From Lacticaseibacillus suibinensis (lineage in GTDB: Bacteria > Bacillota > Bacilli > Lactobacillales > Lactobacillaceae): a stretch of 64,000 bases of DNA. Positions within the stretch are counted from its first letter, which is position 1; every line of letters begins with the position of its first letter. The stretch spans positions 1-64,000 of the forward strand of contig NZ_RHOK01000006.1 in NCBI RefSeq assembly GCF_003946175.1, read 5' to 3'. The position numbers were made by a program, and so were the translations under genes. Shown here piece after piece: positions 365 to 12,074 of the stretch. Below the pieces are notes generated by a model. That model was not told the origin of the DNA and did not search any database. It saw only the letters and a program-made list of their open reading frames with translations.

Positions 365-375
365 TATTCCCATTC
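365..375. other. att core, distal copy (integrase end)
   Basis: TATTCCCATTC, identical to the 11 bases at 10513-10523 that end guaA. It lies about 80 bp from the integrase stop codon. Confidence 0.75.
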
Positions 376-456: not shown

Positions 457-1659
457 CTAGTATTTTATTGACTGATTACCATTAAAATCGACGCCTGATT
501 CAGTCGCCGAATCAAATTTGATGTTGCCACTCATCTTCGCCGCAAGTTCCTCATCGCCACGGCTCCACAAGTGCGAATAATGCTTCAACGTGATCTCTGG
601 TGATGAGTGGCCTAATCGTTTCGATACATGTAACACATTCGCGTTAAATTCGTTGATCAAGTAACTCACATGTGAGTGCCGTAGACCTTTAGCTTGAATG
701 TCTACAACATCTGCCAGCTTCGCATAACGCGTGATCACTTTCATCACAGTTGAGCGGTACGTCGGCTTGCCCGTTGCACTCATCACAAAATTCTTCACGC
801 CATGTGCTTCTTGAACGGCCTGCCACTCTTTCAATACAGCGATCGTATCGTCATCAAGCGAAATGGTGCGCATACCCTCTACTGTCTTGGTATATGGTTT
901 GCGCGTCCAATCATTTTGGTTTCTCATATCAAGCGTATGATGAACGCGCATTTTCTTACTACCAAAATCAATATCGCTCCACCAGAGCGCCAAACCTTCG
1001 CTGACACGAATGCCGGTCATGTAATACACCCACAGCATGACGAAACACATATGCTCGTAGAAGTCCTCGCAATAGATTTTTGACAAGACTGCTTCAAACT
1101 CGTCCTTCGTCCAAAACGCGACGGCAGCTTTACCTTTAGGAATGGCCTTAGTTCGCTTTGAAATATTACTTGATAGAAAGTTGAGTGTCACCGCATAATC
1201 TAACGTTGTTCGCAGCATTGTGTACACCAGCGACGAGTAGGCTTGCGATAGCCCTGAATCATTAAGCAACCAGATACGGAACCGCTCACAGTCGCCAACT
1301 TCGATGTCACGTAACTTCATTTTACCGAAACGGTCAGTAAGAATCTTCATGGTTGATTGCCGAGAGTTCCACGTACTATCTTCAACAATCGAGCGATAAT
1401 ATGGCTTATAGGTCTGAGCCATGAACTCGTCATAGGTCAAATTATAGTTGATCAGCCCGTTTGAAAGTTGATACTCATGCTTGACGCGAATCAGCTCTTT
1501 GTGCGCGGCATAGGCGGTAGCAAACGGCTGACCTAACTGATCTTTACGGCTTTTACATTGAATGCGCTCGCCAGTTGCTTTATCTACCCCCAATTCAGTT
1601 TGATAGAAGAACTTTCCGTTGGCGTCCGAGTAGACACCGGTATATTTAGTTTTAGACAT
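457..1659 (-). CDS. int: Tyrosine recombinase / integrase of the element
   Basis: Site-specific recombinase of about 400 residues that would catalyse integration at, and excision from, the guaA 3' end. The N-terminus (starting MSKTKYTGVYSD) resembles an AP2-like arm-binding domain. A SAM-like core-binding domain follows, and the C-terminal catalytic domain shows the tyrosine recombinase signatures: an Arg in TGIRVSEGLAL, HSHVSYL (with GLRHSH as the Arg-x-x-His box), LGHSS, and the nucleophile Tyr in TLKHYSHLW. I chose ATG 1659 because GAGGAG lies just upstream inside the DUF3173 gene; a longer frame to 1725 has no comparable site. It overlaps the upstream gene by 8 bp, so the two are probably translated together. 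The gene ends directly at the arm repeats. Confidence 0.93.
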   Translation of the reverse strand: MSKTKYTGVYSDANGKFFYQTELGVDKATGERIQCKSRKDQLGQPFATAYAAHKELIRVKHEYQLSNGLINYNLTYDEFMAQTYKPYYRSIVEDSTWNSRQSTMKILTDRFGKMKLRDIEVGDCERFRIWLLNDSGLSQAYSSLVYTMLRTTLDYAVTLNFLSSNISKRTKAIPKGKAAVAFWTKDEFEAVLSKIYCEDFYEHMCFVMLWVYYMTGIRVSEGLALWWSDIDFGSKKMRVHHTLDMRNQNDWTRKPYTKTVEGMRTISLDDDTIAVLKEWQAVQEAHGVKNFVMSATGKPTYRSTVMKVITRYAKLADVVDIQAKGLRHSHVSYLINEFNANVLHVSKRLGHSSPEITLKHYSHLWSRGDEELAAKMSGNIKFDSATESGVDFNGNQSIKY

Positions 1660-1864
1660 GGTCTTGCTCCTCGTTTCCGAGTGAACAGCCAATGATTTCT
1701 TCGACAACGCTAAGCGGTACGTCACCTAGCCGACGATTACTGTAAAACGGGTAGCCTCTTTGCACCATGATGATCTTGGCTTGACGGATGATCATCATCG
1801 CGGTGTGTTCGCGGTAATGACCAAGCCGCATCAATTCGGCTTTATTGATTGTACTGTTTTTCAT
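1652..1864 (-). CDS. DUF3173-type small protein, probable excision/directionality partner
   Basis: A 70-residue protein starting MKNSTINKAELM, with the pattern ARIIRQAK / GYPFYSNRRLG / VPLSVVEEIIG that I recognise from DUF3173 proteins, which are almost always encoded beside integrases of Gram-positive integrative elements. The start at 1864 has GTGAGG upstream; the longer frame (to 1924) is not needed. The family looks like a small helix-turn-helix DNA-binding protein, so a role as recombination directionality factor is plausible but inferred. Its 3' end carries the ribosome site and overlaps the start of int. Confidence 0.8.
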   Translation of the reverse strand: MKNSTINKAELMRLGHYREHTAMMIIRQAKIIMVQRGYPFYSNRRLGDVPLSVVEEIIGCSLGNEEQDHV

Positions 1865-2037
1865 GGTTACCTCACTTGTAATGTTTTCCCTGCCTGTGAG
1901 ATAATCAATCCAGATAGGACCCATATCTTATCTGTGTGAGGTGACTACTTGCTTTGGACGGCGTAGTCGCCTTTTTGATTACCCACGATTTCTTATTATT
2001 GACGCACTGCCCTTTGCATACGAATGGCCGCACGATT

Positions 2038-2559
2038 CTAAAGCTTGTCCTCATTCTTCAACACATAATCAATTTTCTTGACGATCTCATCCAGTTTGTC
2101 TAACGGCAATCGGGTAATCTTGCCTGGGAACATCCGCACCTTGTTATCATCGTCTAGAATTGGCATCGCATCCTCATCGTAAAGTGGATGCGGCGCAAAG
2201 AAATTCATCACATGATCGACTTGGTAGGCAATCTTGTCTAGATCAGAAGCTGAGTAATGATCCATCAACGTGCCAATCTGGAAAATAGTTCTGATTCTCT
2301 CATCGTATGCGTCAATGCGATCTAAGATTACTGGCACATCATTCAAGGCCACTTCTTTTGGCGAACCAAACAACTCAACTGGTGTTGCATTAAACACCTT
2401 GGCAAATTTCTCAAGCGTCTCAAACGTTGGATAGCGCACACCGCGCTCAATGTTTGAGATGCTTTGTTTTTTTACACCAATCTTGTTCGCCAGATCCTCC
2501 TGCGACATATCGTACTGCTTTCGCAGACGCGCAATGTTACGGCCAAAATTTTCAATCAT
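2038..2559 (-). CDS. Xre-family repressor of the element
   Basis: 173-residue regulator. Residues 1-60 form a Cro/C1-type helix-turn-helix (LRKQYDMSQEDLANKIGVKKQSISNIE...). The C-terminal half has no recognisable peptidase motif and is probably for oligomerisation. ATG 2559 is preceded by GAGGTG; the nominal GTG at 2568 overlaps that site and is unlikely. The gene is divergent from the replication/mobilisation operon and is likely the switch for it; inverted repeats that could be operators lie at 2720-2759. It has its own promoter at 2601-2629. Confidence 0.88.
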   Translation of the reverse strand: MIENFGRNIARLRKQYDMSQEDLANKIGVKKQSISNIERGVRYPTFETLEKFAKVFNATPVELFGSPKEVALNDVPVILDRIDAYDERIRTIFQIGTLMDHYSASDLDKIAYQVDHVMNFFAPHPLYDEDAMPILDDDNKVRMFPGKITRLPLDKLDEIVKKIDYVLKNEDKL

Positions 2560-2600
2560 TCTAATCACCTCGTTTTTATTCGGGAAGTCCCCGTAAGCAC

Positions 2601-2831: not shown

Positions 2832-3011
2832 CGGTCGGCACGGCCAGCGGCATAAGTGCCGGCCGAGGGCAAATCACAATTCAGGGTGCCTTTCTAATAG
2901 CACCCTGTAAGGAAACAAATAAATGCGCAAATTAACCTGCGCATAAGCATCAATACCGTGTTGTATCAGATTTTCACGACAATGTTAAAAGTTGCAACTA
3001 GTCGCAACTTT
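2832..3011 (+). other. Run of four hairpins before rep, candidate oriT or replication origin
   Basis: Four inverted repeats in a row: CGGTCGGCAC/GTGCCGGCCG (2832-2865), CAGGGTGC/GCACCCTG (2882-2907), ATGCGCA/TGCGCAT (2923-2944) and AAAGTTGC/GCAACTTT (2988-3011). The last ends directly before the ribosome site of the Rep_trans gene. NicK/MobT-type relaxases of Gram-positive elements act at hairpin-rich sites close to their own gene. The role here is inferred from position. Confidence 0.4.
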
Positions 3012-3017
3012 AAGGAG

Positions 3018-4127
3018 GTGAACAATATAGTTACATCGCAACCCACTACGCAAAACGTACTCGGCAAAGTCGACTGGTTACAAATCATCTTCGTAAATGT
3101 ACAATGGCAAACCATCTTCTCTGACGTCTTGTTGATCACACCTGACTGTGTCACCAGTGAAGCCGGTTCGTTAAAGCACGAAGAGTATGACATTGTTTAC
3201 GCTTGCGGATCAATCCGCTACTACACAACCGAAGACCACGGCACACGCGGTACTCTAGTCATGAGCGGCCAAGCCTGTACCATGTATGAATGGGGTATGT
3301 TGGCAGCCGATACCCAACAGAACGTTTTCCAAGAACTTGCCTTACGGATTATCGAGCTGGCAACCAACCACGCCGCCACGTTTGAAATCAGTCGCCTCGA
3401 TCTGGCGCTAGATGATTATAATACCAAGCCATTCTTTGGCATTGATACCATCATCGGCAAGGTACGCCGTAAGCAGTTCTTATCCAAGGGTCGTTCCGCA
3501 CAACTAATTGATAGTGAGTTCGACAAGCGTACTCGATCTAAGACCCAACAAATCGGGTCTCGTGGCTCCGACTGCATATTCCGGTTCTATGAGAAAGCTA
3601 AGGAATTGGCGCATAGTCTCTCTGGCGTTGACCGCGAAAAAATGCTGGACGAAGCACCACAAATTCGGCTTGAGGCAGAAACTCGACACGATACTGCCAA
3701 AAGCCTGCTAATGGTAATCGCGTACATGACCCAAGAGCAAACGCTAAGTAATCTCATTCGCGGTTTTGTCAAAACCGAACTGAACTTCTACACATCAACT
3801 GACTACACAACCGTCGCCCGCTGGTGGATAAACTTTCTCAAGCCTTGTTTTGTACCGACGATTCGTCGGCAAAAACCACGAACAGATTTTGACAAATCAA
3901 TGTACTGGTTTGAGCACCAAGGCGGTTTTGCAATCACCCAAGCACTATACTTCTTGGTCAGCCACCAAATGATTGTTCCACCTACACTGCTAGCGGAGGA
4001 TCCAGAATATCTGTGGAACTCAGAGCTTGCCAACAAGTTGATTGATTTTGTGATCATCAATGACCGGCCAGACTTGGTTCCATTGATCCAAAGACGCATC
4101 AAAAAACCGCTCACTCCTGAACAGTGA
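3018..4127 (+). CDS. Rep_trans-family replication initiator / MobT-type relaxase
   Basis: About 370 residues. Recognisable features are the ISRLDLALDDYN segment (acidic metal-binding region) and SRGSDCIFRFYEKAKE with the Arg-rich, Tyr-containing stretch typical of replication initiation factors and of NicK of ICEBs1 / Orf20 of Tn916. It would nick the element DNA at a nearby origin to start rolling-circle replication or transfer. The start is uncertain: the only strong ribosome site (TAAGGAGG, 3012-3018) overlaps the in-frame GTG at 3018 and lies 8 bp from an in-frame ATA at 3027, while GTG 2958 and ATG 2982 lie upstream of a hairpin and lack good sites. No helicase or coupling protein follows, so it depends on helpers for transfer. 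Confidence 0.8.
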   Translation: MNNIVTSQPTTQNVLGKVDWLQIIFVNVQWQTIFSDVLLITPDCVTSEAGSLKHEEYDIVYACGSIRYYTTEDHGTRGTLVMSGQACTMYEWGMLAADTQQNVFQELALRIIELATNHAATFEISRLDLALDDYNTKPFFGIDTIIGKVRRKQFLSKGRSAQLIDSEFDKRTRSKTQQIGSRGSDCIFRFYEKAKELAHSLSGVDREKMLDEAPQIRLEAETRHDTAKSLLMVIAYMTQEQTLSNLIRGFVKTELNFYTSTDYTTVARWWINFLKPCFVPTIRRQKPRTDFDKSMYWFEHQGGFAITQALYFLVSHQMIVPPTLLAEDPEYLWNSELANKLIDFVIINDRPDLVPLIQRRIKKPLTPEQ

Positions 4128-4184: not shown

Positions 4185-4571
4185 ATGGCTAAAATGTTAA
4201 GCATGCGCGATTTCGACTACTCCAAGATCGGCAACATCTTTGAACTAGACGAAGTCACCCCTAAAATGGCTACGGAAGAACGCCTTGATGATTCTGGCAA
4301 CAAAATCATGGGCAATGATGGTACACCGCGAAAATTCAACACTGATGAAATTGTCGGCTATAAGTATTCCGTCACGATTCTGGAAGGTGAACATCGTAAG
4401 AAGTCCACTCAGATCACCGTTTCTGGTCTCGATTGTCCAATCAACAACGCGGAAATCATGAAACGTGACAGCGTGAAATGCCGCTTTACCGGTTTAGAAC
4501 CGAGCATGGTCGGCAACCCAATCTACTACAAGGCCGAAAAGATTGAATTAGTGGCCCCACAGGCCAAATAA
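4185..4571 (+). CDS. Small accessory protein of the element, unknown function
   Basis: A 128-residue acidic protein that begins MAKMLSMRDFDYSKIG, follows the Rep_trans gene by 57 bp and has the ribosome site AAAGGAAA. No membrane segment, signal peptide or catalytic motif is visible. The sequence is mainly beta-like with charged turns (EGEHRKKSTQITVSG). Proteins of this size commonly follow Rep genes in integrative elements and plasmids, so a single-strand binding or replication accessory role is conceivable, but I do not recognise the family. A strong terminator follows. Confidence 0.75.
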   Translation: MAKMLSMRDFDYSKIGNIFELDEVTPKMATEERLDDSGNKIMGNDGTPRKFNTDEIVGYKYSVTILEGEHRKKSTQITVSGLDCPINNAEIMKRDSVKCRFTGLEPSMVGNPIYYKAEKIELVAPQAK

Positions 4572-4621: not shown

Positions 4622-7387
4622 CTACTTGGTCAGTTGCCGATAACGTTCAAACAGCATGGCGACCGTATCACTCTCGGTGGTGCCTTTAATTGTCAGCCCA
4701 TATGCCCGCATAACGGCTCGATCGTTATCTTGGTGTGCCTTGCGCAGTTCAGGAACCGTCGCCAACGGATCATAAAGATCAGCTAAGCTACTATCTGGAT
4801 AGAGCTTACGGGCATCCAGAATTCCTTGGGCGGTTTGTTCAATTTGCGTCTTTTGCTTGTCATCAACTTCCGGCCACGGGAAATTTGCATAGACGGTTGG
4901 CGAGTAACTGTAATCGCTCTTCATCCTACCAGCAACCGCACGCATCCACGCCATATGCACATTAGAAGTCATCACGCCGAACATATACAGGCTGGCATTC
5001 GGAACGAGATACAGCTTGTTGCTGGCAATAATATCTGGTGGCATCCACCCCATCGGCACATAACGGCGGTTTTCGCTCGAAACCTCGGGGACCGCTAGAT
5101 AGTTTGAATCCGGTTGACGAATTTCAGTGAATAACATGGGCATTTCCGCCAATGCCTTAACTGACGGCGTAGGGCTCTTCAATCTTGCTTCGGTGACGGC
5201 CGCTAATCGTTCCATGATCGGTGGAACAGAGCGAAACTGACTTGGTGAGACACCCTTTAACCAAATGCAGTAACGCTCAACATTATTGATAAAGTCTCTG
5301 GAGCCAACATAACGTCGAATATAACTTTCAGTTTGCGGGTACTGCTTAATTAACGCCGCTCGTTCCGCTGGAGAAAGAATCAAGTTACCACCATCAACTG
5401 GTTTACTACCCTGCGACATCATTGGAAATTGAGAACCAGACACACTAATCTTTCGCCGAGGTTGTGGGTAAACATTCGCTCCCTCGGTAAGATACGCATT
5501 GATGTGATCAACCAGCTTCATCTGGCCGCCTTCAAACAGACGCTTATTTCCCTTGCGTGGGTAGCCGGTGAACCCAATGATGACCACATGAACTTGCGCT
5601 TTTTCCTTGGCTTCACTGCTCCAGCGGAATGTCCGGTACGCGAATTGAATCTCGATCCCTTTTTCGAATAGCTTTGGCCAAAGTGTTGGGGCTTGCTCAC
5701 CTTGGGTGATCGAGTTAGTCGAAACAAAGGCGACTTCGGTCGTTTTACCTTGAATGAAGTCTGCCGCTTTGTTGTACCACGCCGCGACATAATCCAGCTT
5801 GCCGTACTTGCTAAAATCATGGAAGGCAATATCCATATCTGCAGCTTGCGCACGTGTCCGCTTCTCGTGACCATAAAATGGTGGATTGCCAATGATATAA
5901 GTAATCCGTTCACCGCCAACTACCGTTTCCCAATCGAGACGGATGGCATTGCCTTCTGTGATGTTGGTATATGTCTTCAGGGGTAAGAAGTCCATATTCG
6001 CGTAGACAATCGCCGCCGTTTCTTCCATCATCTGCGATTCAGCGATCCACAACGCTGTCTTGCCGACGGACACCGCAAAGTCATTGATTTCAATACCATA
6101 AAACTGTTGAATGGACACCTTGATCAAATCGTCATCAACTGCCAACATACTTTCATTCCCGTAAATCAAGCTGATAACCTGGTTTTCGAGCTTCCGCAAT
6201 GACAAATAGGTTTCAGTCAGAAAGTTACCTGACCCACACGCTGGATCAAAGAAACGCAACTTACCGAGCCGGGCTTGAAAATCTGTCGCGCGTTGAATCA
6301 TGGTCTTACGTTGCTTAATTTGCTTGATTTCAGTCAGCTCATCTCGGAGACCGTCTAGGAACATTGGATCAATGACTTTATGAATATTGGCAATCGAGGT
6401 ATAGTGCATGCCACCTTCACGTCGCGTGTCTGGGTTCAAGGTACTCTCAAACACCGCACCAAAAATTGTTGGGCTGATCTCAGACCAGTCAAACTCCTTG
6501 CTGGCTTGATCTAGAATCAAAGCGCGCAACGAATCGGTGAATTGTGGAATCTCAACTTCCTCATTAGCAAACATTCCGCCATTCACATACGGAAACTCAG
6601 CCAACTTTTCTTCCAGATATGGGTCGCGTTTATCGATTGGCGTATCCAGCACACGAAACAGGTCTATCAAGGCCGTGCGCAGATGCCGCGTCTCAAATTC
6701 ATTGAGATAGTCGTGAAACATACCATGACGGCCAAACATGCCAGCATCTTCAGCGTACAAGCAAAACACTAGACGCACCGACAACTCGTTGATACTACGC
6801 TGACTGCTGGCATTAGTAGGATCGCGATATTGCGTGAAAAGTTCATCGTAAATCTTGCCGACCAACTCACCAGCTTGCATTGAAACTTCCATCTCTTTAT
6901 CGAGATGTGGGTTCAACTGATCAACGATAAAGTCCAGACGGTAATACTCGGTCGGTAAGTCCTTAAGCTGGATCACTGCCGGCTCGCCATTAGGTTGCTC
7001 CATATCATACACGAAGAACTGGGTGAAGTTGCTCGTGATAATCCAGCGCGGCCGCTTAGAGTACGGTAAATTGGCGGAGTATCGTTTTGCTTGCTCAAAC
7101 GGAGACAGCAAACTGCCGTCAGATTGCCGTATGCCATCAAACAAGCTCTTATTTCGGCCTTTCTGTTCAATCAACACCTTGGTTGTGTCAATGAAACCGT
7201 CAATAAAGCTGGTGTGATCCAGCATTACTCGGTCTTCAAAACTGATGTACTCGCCAGGATTAGGAATATCATAGACAGTCTCCAGCAAGTCCAACCAGAA
7301 GGTCTGACTATCCTGTCGTTCATTACCACGATCTTGCCAACGCTTGGTAAAAGCCGTAGCAGCTCGTTTTTGATCTGCTTCCTTCAT
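4622..7387 (-). CDS. MmeI-like single-chain type IIG/IIL restriction-modification enzyme
   Basis: 921 residues, the size of MmeI, with endonuclease, adenine-N6 methyltransferase and specificity functions in one chain. Visible parts: an N-terminal PD-(D/E)XK nuclease with D63 and E74-Q-K76 (FIDTTKVLIEQKG); a helical spacer; methyltransferase motif I FFDPACGSGNFL at about 379-390; the catalytic NPPF at 501-504; and a C-terminal target-recognition region (about 610-850) ending with a helical domain. The family cleaves about 20 bp from an asymmetric site and methylates one strand. All key motifs are present, so the enzyme looks intact and would restrict unmethylated phage or plasmid DNA. ATG 7387 is preceded by GAGG. 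The gene stands alone, opposite to rep. Confidence 0.9.
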   Translation of the reverse strand: MKEADQKRAATAFTKRWQDRGNERQDSQTFWLDLLETVYDIPNPGEYISFEDRVMLDHTSFIDGFIDTTKVLIEQKGRNKSLFDGIRQSDGSLLSPFEQAKRYSANLPYSKRPRWIITSNFTQFFVYDMEQPNGEPAVIQLKDLPTEYYRLDFIVDQLNPHLDKEMEVSMQAGELVGKIYDELFTQYRDPTNASSQRSINELSVRLVFCLYAEDAGMFGRHGMFHDYLNEFETRHLRTALIDLFRVLDTPIDKRDPYLEEKLAEFPYVNGGMFANEEVEIPQFTDSLRALILDQASKEFDWSEISPTIFGAVFESTLNPDTRREGGMHYTSIANIHKVIDPMFLDGLRDELTEIKQIKQRKTMIQRATDFQARLGKLRFFDPACGSGNFLTETYLSLRKLENQVISLIYGNESMLAVDDDLIKVSIQQFYGIEINDFAVSVGKTALWIAESQMMEETAAIVYANMDFLPLKTYTNITEGNAIRLDWETVVGGERITYIIGNPPFYGHEKRTRAQAADMDIAFHDFSKYGKLDYVAAWYNKAADFIQGKTTEVAFVSTNSITQGEQAPTLWPKLFEKGIEIQFAYRTFRWSSEAKEKAQVHVVIIGFTGYPRKGNKRLFEGGQMKLVDHINAYLTEGANVYPQPRRKISVSGSQFPMMSQGSKPVDGGNLILSPAERAALIKQYPQTESYIRRYVGSRDFINNVERYCIWLKGVSPSQFRSVPPIMERLAAVTEARLKSPTPSVKALAEMPMLFTEIRQPDSNYLAVPEVSSENRRYVPMGWMPPDIIASNKLYLVPNASLYMFGVMTSNVHMAWMRAVAGRMKSDYSYSPTVYANFPWPEVDDKQKTQIEQTAQGILDARKLYPDSSLADLYDPLATVPELRKAHQDNDRAVMRAYGLTIKGTTESDTVAMLFERYRQLTK

Positions 7388-7509: not shown

Positions 7510-7788
7510 TTAAGTGAATTCAACTTTGAGCTTTTTTCCCAGTGCAAAGGCAATCTTGCTCATGGTATCGAAGCTAGTATTCTGGCCATGTTCAATTCTT
7601 GCAATCGTTGACTGCGGCACATCTGCACGCTCTGCCAGTTCCCGTTGGGTCAAGCCAGCACGTTCACGCTCGTTCATCAACGCCACCGCACTCTCAAGTT
7701 TAGCAGATTCGGCATCAAAGCCTGCCTTGAATTCAGGGTCTTTAAGTTGTTCAGCGAGATAATCGTCAAAAAGAATGTTCTTTGCCAT
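7510..7788 (-). CDS. HigA-like antitoxin, Xre family
   Basis: 92 residues starting MAKNILFDDYLAEQL. The C-terminal half is a helix-turn-helix (LTQRELAERADVPQSTIARIEHG). It would neutralise the toxin encoded immediately upstream and repress the operon. The ATG at 7788 lies one base after the toxin stop codon, and its ribosome site GGAGGT lies within the last toxin codons, so translation is coupled. Toxin-first order is typical of HigBA systems. Confidence 0.88.
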   Translation of the reverse strand: MAKNILFDDYLAEQLKDPEFKAGFDAESAKLESAVALMNERERAGLTQRELAERADVPQSTIARIEHGQNTSFDTMSKIAFALGKKLKVEFT

Positions 7789-7789
7789 G

Positions 7790-8149
7790 TTACTTACCTC
7801 CCAAATTATCGTAGTATTCTGTCCTGAGTTCTTTGGCATGATTAAGTTCAGACACCGGCGTCTTCTGGGTCTTCTTCGTGAAGCCATGCGTAATCACATA
7901 ATGCGGACCTTCAACGTGGAAGTACAAGCCGCGCTGGATATTAGATCCCGTTGTCCGAAGCTCAAAGATGCCATCTGAGATTTTTCTGATCCACATTTGG
8001 CGCGCCGCCACCTGCAAACCGAATTTCTGTGTCTTAGCAATAACGGTGACCAGCTTCTGCTTTTCCACCGGTTTCAAACTATCTAAGAATTCTTGGAATT
8101 CATTGTGTCCACTGGGACGCGTGTAAAACTCGAACTTAGGATTTTCCAT
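7790..8149 (-). CDS. HigB/RelE-superfamily toxin (Gp49/DUF891-like)
   Basis: 119 residues starting MENPKFEFYTRPSG. The pattern (EFQEFLDSL..., then IRKISDGIFELRTTGSNIQRGLYFHVEG..., then ITHGFTKKTQKTPVSEL) is that of phage Gp49/HigB-type RelE-fold mRNA interferases, which cut mRNA on the ribosome. The longer frame to 8212 is not supported: a promoter TTGATA-17-TATACT ends six bases before ATG 8149, so the transcript would begin at or near the start codon. The pair lies between the restriction enzyme and the DUF6414/AAA pair and probably helps keep the element. Confidence 0.85.
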   Translation of the reverse strand: MENPKFEFYTRPSGHNEFQEFLDSLKPVEKQKLVTVIAKTQKFGLQVAARQMWIRKISDGIFELRTTGSNIQRGLYFHVEGPHYVITHGFTKKTQKTPVSELNHAKELRTEYYDNLGGK

Positions 8150-8184
8150 GAGTTCAGTATACACCCAGCGAGTCATAATATCAA
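8150..8184 (-). promoter_or_regulatory. Promoter of higBA, probably giving a leaderless mRNA
   Basis: Minus-strand TTGATA, 17-bp spacer, TATACT, then six bases to the ATG at 8149. No Shine-Dalgarno sequence is present. Confidence 0.65.
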
Positions 8185-8306
8185 TATATGCTATCAGCAT
8201 TCTAAAATCCACATTTCAAAACTTCGTAGTCTCTAAATGAGTGAATTAAAAGATCAGCGCACTCGGGAACGCTTGTTCGAGAATCAACCATATAAGCCTT
8301 CTACTC

Positions 8307-8315
8307 TGCTATAAT
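8307..8315 (+). promoter_or_regulatory. Extended -10 promoter of the DUF6414-like/AAA operon
   Basis: TGCTATAAT, an extended -10 hexamer, 44 bp before the ATG at 8359. No clear -35 element is seen. Confidence 0.6.
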
Positions 8316-8358: not shown

Positions 8359-9192
8359 ATGAAGAAAAACCTGCCACGAAAAATCATCTACTTTGATGAA
8401 ACCTCCGCTGTAGATTTATTACAGGTTCGTCAAAAAGGACATCTGACGAGAACCGAGGAAACAATTCGATCTATGACTGGGAAAATTGGCGCAGATGCTG
8501 ACATAAAAGCACAACTAGACGAAGGCGTCGGAGTCAATAAGCTGATGAGTCATATCTCTGGCTTATCCGCCGGCATCAACTCAATGATGGGAGCAAACGG
8601 ATCTCTCAACGGAAGTAAAATTGCCAGAACCGTCATTGAGAATTCTTTGCTTTATGATTTCTTGGAGGCCGCTGAATCGAAACGGGGAACGCCATTATTA
8701 GATATTAAGGAAGGCTACGCACTCTCAATTCCGAAGGATTCAATGACTTACTTCGCAACCATAGCACCTCTAACAGAGATGATGGAGGGACATCAGCAGC
8801 TCGACAATCCAGATATTACCATGGCAATTTCAAAAATGAACAGCGGCATCCGAAACTCTAAAGGTTACTACGAAGTAGTCGGAGAAAAAACTGATTCAAA
8901 ATTTGGTAAATCCATCATCACTCAAAAAGTATTTCGTTTTAACATTGATGCTTTTAAGAACAATTACCGCATTCAGGATTTGCCTAAAATGAACTTAGTT
9001 CTGTATGCTATTCACGTCGGTACAACAAGGCTATCCCAACTCGATTTTGAAACAGAATTCAATCTTGACAGTCAGCAGTCCGAAGTCGGATTTAGCGGTT
9101 TAGCCAAGCAGGCTCAATCCCATCAGGATGCTGATTCTAACGACGAAAAATCGCTTGATGTTTTCGATGTCGTTTTAGCGGGGGTTCGCTAA
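8359..9192 (+). CDS. DUF6414-like protein, first gene of a candidate defence pair
   Basis: 277 residues beginning with KIIYFDETSAVDLLQ, a start pattern I associate from memory with DUF6414 proteins. A central low-complexity turn region (about 55-95, rich in Gly, Ser, Met and Asn) is followed by an alpha/beta part. There is no transmembrane segment, nuclease or nucleotide-binding motif. The stop codon overlaps the ATG of the AAA gene (TAATG), which indicates that the two proteins are made together. It is carried as cargo beside a restriction enzyme and a toxin-antitoxin pair. The function is unknown; a sensor or effector partner of the ATPase is my inference. Confidence 0.75.
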   Translation: MKKNLPRKIIYFDETSAVDLLQVRQKGHLTRTEETIRSMTGKIGADADIKAQLDEGVGVNKLMSHISGLSAGINSMMGANGSLNGSKIARTVIENSLLYDFLEAAESKRGTPLLDIKEGYALSIPKDSMTYFATIAPLTEMMEGHQQLDNPDITMAISKMNSGIRNSKGYYEVVGEKTDSKFGKSIITQKVFRFNIDAFKNNYRIQDLPKMNLVLYAIHVGTTRLSQLDFETEFNLDSQQSEVGFSGLAKQAQSHQDADSNDEKSLDVFDVVLAGVR

Positions 9193-10337
9193 TGGCAAAT
9201 ATTCAATTATTCTACGGATCGAGCAAAGATTTCCACTCTCTACTTAATCGAAATCAAGTAGAGGACAATTACACACCATTTATGGAGCTGATTCGTCAAT
9301 ATAACGTAACAGTCCGCGCCAACGATACTATGGGCAACAAAGATGCTGAATTTAGCCGCGATGAAATTGACAACGTAGTAATTTTTGCTGATGACTTTGC
9401 ATCGGTCACAGAACACGTAATCTCAAATTTCTCGAATATTGTACTACTTGGTCACGAGATCGAAAACTTGTATATTCAAAACCCTCCGAAACGAGTTGAA
9501 TACTCTATCAGATCCAACTTTAATGAAGATGAGATTGATGAAGCAAGGTCGCCATATTTTTCACCCAGTACGACCGAAGTCACAAAACTTTACTCTCAAC
9601 TACTAACCGGAAAAGTTGTTGGCCAAAACAACGCTAAACGTGAATCGTGCGTAGGATTGTATAAAGCGGCGTACCATCATCAGAAAAAACCTACCGTCAT
9701 GATGTTCTACGGTCCCTCTGGCGTAGGGAAAACTGAATTAGCTAAGAACATTAGCAACTTCTATCATGGTAAGTTAACACGAATTCAGTTTTCAATGATG
9801 CAAACCGAGGAAGCCTTCAAATATGTTTTCGGTGATGAACATGCTCGGCCATCCATGGCTAGGGACTTACTATCGCGCGAATCAAACATAGTCCTTATCG
9901 ACGAATTCGATAAGGTATCCCCCAGCCTATATAACGTATTTTATCAAATGTTTGATGAGGGTATTTTCGAGGACATCAATTACAAAGTGGACGTATCTAG
10001 TTGTATATTCATCTTAACGTCTAATTTCAACGATGAGGAAACTATTGCGTCCACAGTGGGCCTTCCAATATATTCAAGAATTGATCAAAAGATTAAATTT
10101 GAAAAACTAACCAAGGAGGAAATCTCCACGGTCATCTCTAATGCCTTCAAGCGAATTCTGTCAGAACTCACCCCGGAGGATCAGAAATTTATTAGCGCCT
10201 CAAAATTAGAAGAACACTATCAAGGAAATTTGCAGATTTTTTCAAACGTTCGCATGCTTGATTCATTTATCGAAAATGACGTATATACCATGTTGCTTGA
10301 GCAACAAATAACAGTTAACTCAAGTTCAGATGAATAG
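9192..10337 (+). CDS. Clp-like AAA+ ATPase, second gene of the candidate defence pair
   Basis: 381 residues. Residues 1-130 are a unique N-terminal region of unknown fold. Then comes an AAA_2-type module: VVGQNNAKRESC box at about 142-153, Walker A GPSGVGKT at 174-181, Walker B IVLIDEFD at 233-240, sensor-1 LTSNF near 275-279, and a C-terminal lid domain. It resembles a single ClpB/ClpX-type ring module without a protease or Clp N-domain. The ATG overlaps the preceding stop codon. A stand-alone Clp-like motor coupled to a DUF6414-like partner in an island defence block suggests a two-component antiphage system, but no known system is assigned. A bidirectional terminator separates it from guaA. 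Confidence 0.85.
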   Translation: MANIQLFYGSSKDFHSLLNRNQVEDNYTPFMELIRQYNVTVRANDTMGNKDAEFSRDEIDNVVIFADDFASVTEHVISNFSNIVLLGHEIENLYIQNPPKRVEYSIRSNFNEDEIDEARSPYFSPSTTEVTKLYSQLLTGKVVGQNNAKRESCVGLYKAAYHHQKKPTVMMFYGPSGVGKTELAKNISNFYHGKLTRIQFSMMQTEEAFKYVFGDEHARPSMARDLLSRESNIVLIDEFDKVSPSLYNVFYQMFDEGIFEDINYKVDVSSCIFILTSNFNDEETIASTVGLPIYSRIDQKIKFEKLTKEEISTVISNAFKRILSELTPEDQKFISASKLEEHYQGNLQIFSNVRMLDSFIENDVYTMLLEQQITVNSSSDE

Positions 10338-10355
10338 TAGTACCCGACCCCACAA

Positions 10356-10400
10356 AAAGAGCCATATCTCAAGCAATTCGCTATGAGTATATGGCTCTTT
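10356..10400. terminator. Bidirectional terminator at the element's right end
   Basis: Perfect 12-bp arms AAAGAGCCATAT / ATATGGCTCTTT around a 21-base loop that can itself pair (CTCA/TGAG). It terminates the AAA operon. Confidence 0.85.
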
Positions 10401-10401
10401 A

Positions 10402-10421
10402 TTTGGCAGGATTTTGGCAGG
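10402..10421. repeat. Tandem arm-type repeat, guaA end
   Basis: TTTGGCAGG twice with spacer AT, in the same orientation as the copy at 437-456. Confidence 0.65.
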
Positions 10422-10511
10422 GAACCAAGTAAATTCTACCCATTTCAACCCGTTTCACTTCGTCTGAAATGCCGTTAAACCAAGCTTTTCACTTCAAGTG
10501 ATACCTGCATT

Positions 10512-12074
10512 TTATTCCCATTCAATGGTTGCCGGCGGCTTAGACGTAATATCATACACGACGCGGTTAACATGCCCCACCTCGTTGACAATCCGGGCCG
10601 AGATCTTCTGCAGTACATCCCAATCAATGCGGGCAAAGTCGGCGGTCATACCATCAATCGAAGTGATGGCACGAATGGCGATGGTGTAATCATACGTGCG
10701 GCCATCCCCCATCACGCCAACGCTGCGGAAGCCTGGCAGGACCGTGAAGTATTGCCAGATACTTTCTTGCAGGCCGGCCTTGGCGATTTCATCGCGCAGG
10801 ACCCAGTCGGAGTCGCGGACAATTTCCAGTTTGTCCTTGGTCACTTCACCCAGCACCCGAATGCCGAGGCCAGGGCCTGGGAACGGCTGACGCCACACGA
10901 GATCATGCGGCAGGCCGAGACGTTCGCCGAGGTCGCGGGCTTCATCTTTGAACAGTTTGTTCAGCGGTTCGATGAGCTTAAACTTCAAGTCTTCTGGCAG
11001 GCCGCCGACGTTATGGTGCGACTTGATGGTTTGGGCCGTATCGGTACCGGACTCCACCACGTCGGTGTACAGCGTGCCTTGGGCCAGGTAATCGATGCCG
11101 TGCAGCTTGCGGGCTTCATCATTGAAGACCTCGATAAAGTCGCGGCCGATGATCTTACGTTTTTGCTCAGGGTCGGTGACACCGGCGAGATCGCCAAGGA
11201 AGCGGTCCGCGGCGTCCACCTTGATGATTTTGACCCCGAGGCCTTTGCCGAGACTGTCCATCACTTGGGCCGCTTCATTCTTGCGCAGCAGGCCGTGGTC
11301 AACGAAGATGCAGGTCAGCTGGTCGCCAATCGCCTTGTTGAGCAGCGCCGCGACAACGGAGCTGTCCACGCCGCCAGAGAGGCCGAGCAGGACTTTCTGG
11401 TCGCCGACTTCGGCGCGGATTTCCGCGATTTGGTCGTCGATGAAGTCGCCCATGTTCCAGTTAGCTTCCGCGTGGCAAATGTCGAAGGCAAAATGGTGCA
11501 GGATTTCATGGCCATACTGCGTGTTTTGAACCTCGGCGTGGAACTGAATCCCGTAGAACTTACGGTCATCGTCGTCCATCGCGGCAATCGGGCAGTTCGT
11601 GCTGGTGGCGGTGGTGCGAAAACCTGCCGGCACTGCCCGCACCAGGTCGCCGTGACTCATCCACACGGTTTGCTCTTCAGGCAAGCCGGCGAAGACCTTA
11701 GCAGTCGGGTCGGTGACGGTGATGTCGACTTTACCGTATTCGCGGTTGTCTGCGGCTTCCACGTCGCCGCCGAGGCGCTGCGCCATCAGCTGCATGCCGT
11801 AGCAAACCCCCAGAATCGGGATGCCCAGCTTGAAAATCTCGTCGTCGACGCCAAGTGCGCCTTCGTCGTACACCGAGTTCGGGCCGCCAGAGAAGATGAT
11901 CCCTTTTGGCGCGAGCTGGCGGACTTCTTCTGCTGTGATCGTATGCGGCTTGAGTTCGGAATAGATGCCGAATTCACGAATGCGCCGCGTGATCAATTGA
12001 TTGTACTGACTGCCATAATCAAGGACGATAATTTTGTCGTAGTCCTGGGCCTTGGTTGCCAAGTTTTGCCACAC
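10512..12074 (-). CDS. guaA: GMP synthase (glutamine-hydrolysing)
   Basis: Converts XMP, glutamine and ATP to GMP, the last step of guanine nucleotide synthesis. The N-terminal class I glutamine amidotransferase domain has the nucleophile Cys in GVCYGMQL and its His-Glu partners near FHAEV. The ATP pyrophosphatase domain has the P-loop LSGGVDSSV. The dimerisation domain ends ...ATIEWE. The length is normal. The stop codon lies in the att core of the adjacent element, so the last codons are rebuilt by the insertion. The frame opens with GTG 12074, but AAGGGAG overlaps it; TTG 12062 (11 bases further) may be the real start. The promoter at 12096-12124 is good. Confidence 0.97.

Follow-up and report, generated by a model that had tools for sequence, protein, structure and literature searches.

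The gene pair dolA-dolB in the window (the whole stretch of 64,000 nucleotides from Lacticaseibacillus suibinensis that was analysed here) very probably represents Dodola, a system with antiphage defence function that has been described before. We make this assignment because the models for DolA and DolB both matched over nearly their full length. The first protein matched PADLOC DolA (PDLC03837) with E = 8.9e-88 (protein residues 7-276, profile positions 6-257 of 258) and Pfam DUF6414 with 8.3e-34, and the second matched PADLOC DolB (PDLC03838) with E = 1.1e-137 (residues 2-374, profile positions 2-373 of 375). As in Dodola, the genes were adjacent and overlapping, on the same strand and in the order dolA then dolB; no difference from Dodola was found for the copy in the window. 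Its DolA shared 97.5% identity with the DolA of three annotated copies on lactobacillus plasmids. A sequence-only reading of this DNA had proposed an undescribed system made up of a DUF6414-like protein and a Clp-like AAA+ ATPase. Both protein labels were correct; the system itself is not new, the pair having already been named Dodola. As a discovery claim the pair is therefore ordinary, and the value of the analysis may lie in the comparison of the threading loop. New here is that the Clp threading motif is absent from DolB and kept in the PADLOC candidate PDC-M37, while the catalytic residues of DolB are kept. The features of the region are collected in Table 1.

Table 1. Features of the dolAB gene pair and of the surrounding island; positions are counted from the first nucleotide of the window.
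Feature	Position	Strand	Evidence
Island left end, 11-bp repeat TATTCCCATTC	365-375	+	targeted pattern
Tyrosine integrase of the island	457-1725	-	Phage_integrase, 7.7e-20
Island DUF3173 protein and HTH repressor	1652-2568	-	DUF3173, 3.2e-23; HTH_3, 1.7e-17
Rep_trans / MobT-like initiator of the island	2958-4127	+	Rep_trans, 7e-22; MobT, 7.5e-11, below cut-off
128-aa protein without assigned family, left edge of the plasmid-shared cassette	4185-4571	+	cassette match from 4182
MmeI-like type IIG restriction-methylation enzyme	4622-7387	-	MmeI_Mtase, 1.3e-88; PADLOC type IIG, E = 0
Toxin-antitoxin: HTH antitoxin and Gp49/RelE-type toxin	7510-8212	-	HTH_3, 2.7e-13; Gp49, 2.8e-17
Extended -10 TGCTATAAT 5' of dolAB	8307-8315	+	exact TGnTATAAT; -35 weak or absent
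dolA, DUF6414 protein, 277 aa	8359-9192	+	PADLOC DolA PDLC03837; Pfam DUF6414
dolB, AAA+ ATPase, 381 aa	9192-10337	+	PADLOC DolB PDLC03838; AlphaFold2; PDB folds
Hairpin 3' of dolB, likely transcription terminator	10338-10415	+	-28.9 kcal/mol, z -7.1
guaA	10512-12074	-	
Island right end, same 11-bp repeat TATTCCCATTC in the guaA 3' end	10513-10523	+	targeted pattern

The two open reading frames and their overlap by one base in TAATG (position 9192) were found as the first reading had described them, and so was the extended -10 element upstream of dolA, which is an exact match. Only two further copies of TGnTATAAT were present in the window, both strands counted. The -35 element of dolAB is considered weak or absent because a scan for paired -35/-10 elements gave no site on the + strand upstream of dolA. 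The sequence AAGGCGG lies 7 nt 5' of the dolA ATG. The stability of the hairpin behind dolB was compared to 200 shuffled sequences; the terminator scan of the window did not have this hairpin among its listed sites. We conclude that dolAB plausibly forms its own transcription unit.

The founding description of Dodola is attributed to Millman et al. 2022 in PMC11514479, PMC12322248 and PMC12926258. According to PMC11514479, Dodola is active against phage SPP1, but protection was minimal in the authors' own assays of Streptococcus thermophilus systems belonging to this group, among them Dodola. The same paper terms DolB a ClpB-domain protein, yet later assigns the Clp fold to "DolA"; the two names look swapped at that point. 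In PMC12322248, a Dodola homologue protected against every streptococcal phage tested, and the effect on phage p2 varied with the cloning vector. Table 1 of that paper lists the mechanism as "Unknown", and a table in PMC12926258 also gives it as unknown. Our own literature search for a Dodola mechanism found none; preprints and most subscription papers were outside its reach.

The genes dolA and dolB stay paired in homologues. A scan of genome contigs with a DolA alignment confirmed at least 143 relatives, and the best 80 of these were used for pairing. A DolB homologue followed directly behind DolA in the same order in 79 of the 80 loci, a count that started from DolA and is blind to solitary DolB; in the 80th locus the contig ends 62 bp after DolA. 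Among these best 80 of 143 relatives, the DolB frame comprised at least 340 aa in 76 of the 79 cases, and 75 of 76 gene pairs overlapped or were spaced by -47 to +24 nt. These distances are rough, as they were measured to the first in-frame start, and locus L064 (-182) is such a case. In L049, L102, L113 and the viral locus L114, DolB is short or interrupted and was counted as following by homology, not as intact. The pairwise distances of DolA and DolB correlated with r = 0.90 over 51 pairs, and none of 1000 permutations reached this value (maximum 0.15). PMC10924106 counts Dodola among the systems of which solitary genes turn up in many MAGs, and describes dolB as highly variable.

The DolA model matched in 3 of 398 genomes of the phylum sample, in 15 of 395 genomes of the order sample and in none of 14 control genomes. 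The DolB model matched in all 14 control genomes, and since Clp paralogues score with it, the ATPase alone was ruled out as a diagnostic of Dodola. Eight of the 15 genomes of the order sample carried full-length DolA and full-length DolB, a ninth (L018) had an interrupted DolB frame, and G420 had a broken DolA together with DolB. Three others (G667, G457, G549) harbored PDC-M37 pairs, and the match in G555, which has stop codons within it, was taken as chance. In G422 (L021, 1501-1602), a 34-residue start of DolA remains and no DolB was present in the 3.1-kb stretch; the remnant adjoins a gene that also neighbours dolAB in L013. We read this locus as a decayed Dodola.

DolA was found in 20 plasmid records, of which 10 were typed as mobilizable and 5 as conjugative, and DolB was located behind DolA in all seven of those that were opened. 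A scan of viral contigs with the window DolA as lone query gave no relative. The same scan with the DolA alignment gave two loci, both with DolB, the frame of which was interrupted in one (L114). Among the phage records, one DolA was detected, in an unannotated record of 5.1 kb.

In the window, dolAB is cargo of an integrative element of about 10.1 kb in the 3' end of guaA. An island at this site had been suggested before, and two results bear it out. None of 100 shuffles contained two copies of the 11-bp direct repeat that flanks the element, and a second genome of the genus (G809) carries the same island, 98.5% identical and likewise at guaA. The repeat was missed by a general direct-repeat search and was found by the targeted pattern. 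The neighbouring restriction enzyme is indeed MmeI-like, with four more MmeI domains besides PF20473 (MmeI_Mtase). The neighbouring pair that had been called HigBA is of the toxin-antitoxin type (HTH plus Gp49/RelE); the name HigBA fits only loosely. The 128-aa protein had no Pfam match over the cut-off, and its best NCBIfam match had E = 0.02. In the relative L136, a copy of the right-end region of about 128 bp with 86% identity was seen at the far (left) end, which hints at another element in tandem or at the remains of one. Two further genomes from this genus (G798 with L138; G790 with L139 and L140) contain the 11-bp core twice at guaA, about 18 kb and about 28 kb apart. These stretches share just short matches with the island of the window, for example at 1896-1976 and at the right end.

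The part of the island from 4182 to about 10418-10529 recurs with about 95% identity at seven further loci, namely plasmid L027 and L034-L039. This cassette comprises the 128-aa gene, the MmeI-like enzyme, the toxin-antitoxin pair and dolAB. A serine recombinase was found alongside in five of the seven loci, a relic of the island right end was present in five, and guaA was present in none of the seven stretches. The cassette seems to be mobilized as one block. In L039, its first two genes look interrupted. Positions 1-146 of the window are about 98% like the start region of a 338-aa gene in L038, which we take to be an IS30-like transposase, and also like a stretch of plasmid L027. By this similarity, the end of an insertion sequence abuts the left side of the island.

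We also surveyed the genes flanking homologues, taking two frames of at least 100 aa on each side. Of 156 such frames, 137 were included; they came from 35 of the 40 loci that qualified, and the remainder was dropped because of a size limit. For the control, an 11-kb stretch was taken from each of nine dolA genomes (one dolA broken), which gave 93 frames; neither size nor taxon was matched. Among the first 25 Pfam families listed for the flanking genes were restriction methylases (Eco57I, 5; C5-methylase, 4; N6_N4_Mtase, 3) as well as resolvases (3), GmrSD (3), ResIII (3) and relaxases (2); the 25 families listed for the control genes were mainly housekeeping. At 1e-15, 316 PADLOC families matched in the 137 flanking genes and 3 in the 93 control genes (five proteins at most), which is a contrast and not a rate, as families and not proteins were counted and methyltransferase models overlap heavily. 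Far more defence models were matched by genes flanking DolAB than by control genes. The checks that the first reading had set for its refutation did not turn out against it: the two genes were kept together in the loci examined, and homologues were located on plasmids and next to restriction and recombinase genes. Against it speak the S. thermophilus copy of PMC11514479, which has no obvious defence island around it and an R/M system further downstream, and the solitary genes noted in PMC10924106. In PMC10924106, R-M genes adjoin Dodola genes preferentially outside defence islands.

The Dodola model matches, the phage assays with homologues and the defence and mobility genes beside homologues together back the earlier proposal of a defence module. 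The position of dolAB on an integrative element and on plasmids would also be expected if the pair helped the mobile element to replicate or persist and had no part in defence. No replication gene beside DolAB was shared by the seven plasmid stretches, and homologues were positive in the phage assays of PMC12322248, so that we regard a role in element maintenance as very improbable.

The AlphaFold2 model of DolB had a pLDDT of 93.6 and consists of an alpha/beta N-domain (residues ~1-120), a single AAA module of the Clp D2 type (~140-375) and a helical small domain. The predicted Walker A, Walker B and sensor 1 motifs were all present, and one AAA_2 stretch confirmed the single Clp-type ring module. 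The N-terminus had been regarded as unique; its approximately 120 residues are in fact common to the 51 aligned DolB sequences (window included), with less conservation than the AAA core. All 51 sequences retained the catalytic set, comprising K180/T181 of Walker A, D237/E238 of Walker B, N278 of sensor 1, R296 and R354. From the Clp alignment, we take R296 to be the Arg finger and R354 to be sensor 2. DolB thus resembles the D2 ring of ClpB, ClpC and ClpA in its AAA+ module, Walker motifs, sensors and Arg finger, but differs in having one AAA+ module, an N-domain of its own and Y-x-F-G-x-x-H in place of GYVG.

The closest relatives of DolB in the PDB were ClpC, ClpA, ClpB and human CLPB by sequence and structure, and the structural matches included ClpC1P1P2 complexes. 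This kinship would suit an unfoldase for which DolA is the adaptor and which passes proteins of the phage or the host on to a protease, ClpP or a different one. Hsp100/Clp disaggregases and unfoldases have two AAA+ rings, or one ring and a ClpP-docking loop, plus a GYVG threading loop. We take P-G-Y-V-G of the Clp D2 ring to be this threading loop. The motif GY[VIYF]G was found in none of the 51 DolB sequences, and at the corresponding site DolB has Y-x-F-G-x-x-H-x-x-x-S. Placement of the loop depends on the alignment: relative to Clp the gap here is 5 residues long, whereas relative to the PDC-M37 profile it is 1 residue long and more residues are missing downstream. Y211-x-F213-G214 is nearly invariant across the 51 sequences and might act as pore loop; Y211, F213 or H217 could build an unusual pore-lining loop. 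The docking loop of ClpA and ClpC sits between sensor 1 and the Arg finger, and the stretch from N278 to R296 in the window DolB comprises 17 residues, length being the sole basis on which the docking loop was judged. No protease was found among the ten island proteins scanned. DolB thus falls outside the definition of Hsp100/Clp disaggregases and unfoldases given above. The missing GY[VIYF]G motif argues against DolB as a Clp-like unfoldase, as far as alignment and model can tell, and we consider protein feeding to a protease improbable.

PDC-M37 (proteins M37A and M37B) has the gene order of Dodola. The pairs comprised three weak matches of the order search (L022, L024, L025) and four plasmid loci (L142-L145), with L143 and L145 nearly identical, which leaves six independent M37B sequences. 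M37A matched the DolA model with 7e-09 (L022), 1.2e-06 and 4.5e-05, and M37B matched the DolB model with 3.8e-32. Profile comparison gave 99.8% probability for M37B and DolB and 65.8% for M37A and DolA. Conversely, the window DolB matched the M37B model with 7.3e-25, far weaker than the DolB model, and the window DolA had no score with the M37A model at E up to 1, only the DolA model matching. These comparisons indicate that PDC-M37 pairs are distant relatives of Dodola in both genes. In contrast to DolB, all seven M37B sequences retain G-Y at the threading loop, and six of the seven have the full GY[VIYF]G. This contrast is a testable hint that DolB may not work as a Clp unfoldase, and the link would connect a validated system with a candidate that is so far unpublished. 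In PMC11811056, a single locus is called Dodola as well as PDC-M37, and further PDC-M37 loci carry another name in another program. Neither a viral-contig scan with the PDC-M37A protein nor the phage records gave a PDC-M37A, and the class sample contained one weak fragment among 348 genomes.

The DolA model was of moderate quality (pLDDT 74.9, pTM 0.72), with residues 42-81 and 241-251 below 50. A Foldseek search against the PDB gave 210 matches, none at or below 0.001 (best E = 0.45), and 22 of the 50 matches listed were single-stranded-DNA-binding proteins with OB folds. A possible OB-like fold of DolA is a lead and not a result. The structure gave nothing at 0.001 in a viral library, and the single match of a DolA profile search of PDB sequences (E = 0.069) was taken as chance. 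Invariant in 55 DolA sequences were F12, D13, D19, G27, L98, Y170, R193, N201, Y203, M211, V220 and G221; these positions suggest no known active site.

Pfam DUF6414 matched 11 proteins in 10 of 396 genomes and also one control genome (Haloferax volcanii). Three of the 11 proteins were DolA, and the other eight (L147-L149, L151-L155) had no DolB in their stretch, that of L154 ending 107 bp downstream. These stand-alone proteins share with DolA a score over the Pfam DUF6414 cut-off, but differ in the DolA model match, which was 0.0058 for L149 and not obtained at E ≤ 0.1 for the other seven.

The occurrence of DUF6414 proteins without an ATPase could mean that DolA is a toxic effector by itself, restrained or released by DolB; DolA set free upon infection would then kill the cell (abortive infection). 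The stand-alone genes also speak against an obligatory restraint by DolB, although the proteins are distant. As reported in PMC12322248, chromosomally integrated Dodola slowed growth of S. thermophilus and a knockout abolished the delay, and PMC11514479 classes Dodola among abortive systems; against this, the Abi phenotype is "Unknown" in Table 1 of PMC12322248, and the invariant positions point to no recognizable active site. We consider a toxic DolA possible, if rather unlikely.

We tentatively prefer a mechanism in which an ATP-driven ring of DolB switches or loads DolA when a phage structural protein is sensed. Gene pairing and catalytic anatomy were observed directly, and sequence and single-chain models suggest that DolB may assemble into such a ring and contact DolA. 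The pair would sense a structural protein made or delivered at infection, and DolB would then spend ATP on switching or loading DolA, which would block phage production or halt the cell; unfolding for ClpP would not be involved. The sensing step is proposed because the review table in PMC10286901 lists mutations in phage structural proteins that bypass Dodola, among other systems, an entry for which Stokar-Avihail 2023 is one of the grouped references. More speculatively, and unlikely as a whole, Dodola and PDC-M37 could form two branches of the same immune superfamily, in which a DUF6414-type protein is combined with one Clp-type ring. On the Dodola side, the ring would once have been an unfoldase; having lost the threading loop, it would now serve as an ATP-driven switch by which DolA is armed or loaded in response to a phage structural protein. 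DUF6414 would be the older part, to which the ring was added; it was found alone in most matches of one sample (8 of 11 proteins).

A literature search on "DUF6414" found no paper. The genes next to the stand-alone DUF6414 genes presumably include DUF1016-like, ImmA/IrrE-like and helicase-like ones. All eight stand-alone proteins have Y-x-[DN] near their start, and Y-L-D...L-A-Q is seen in L147 and L155.
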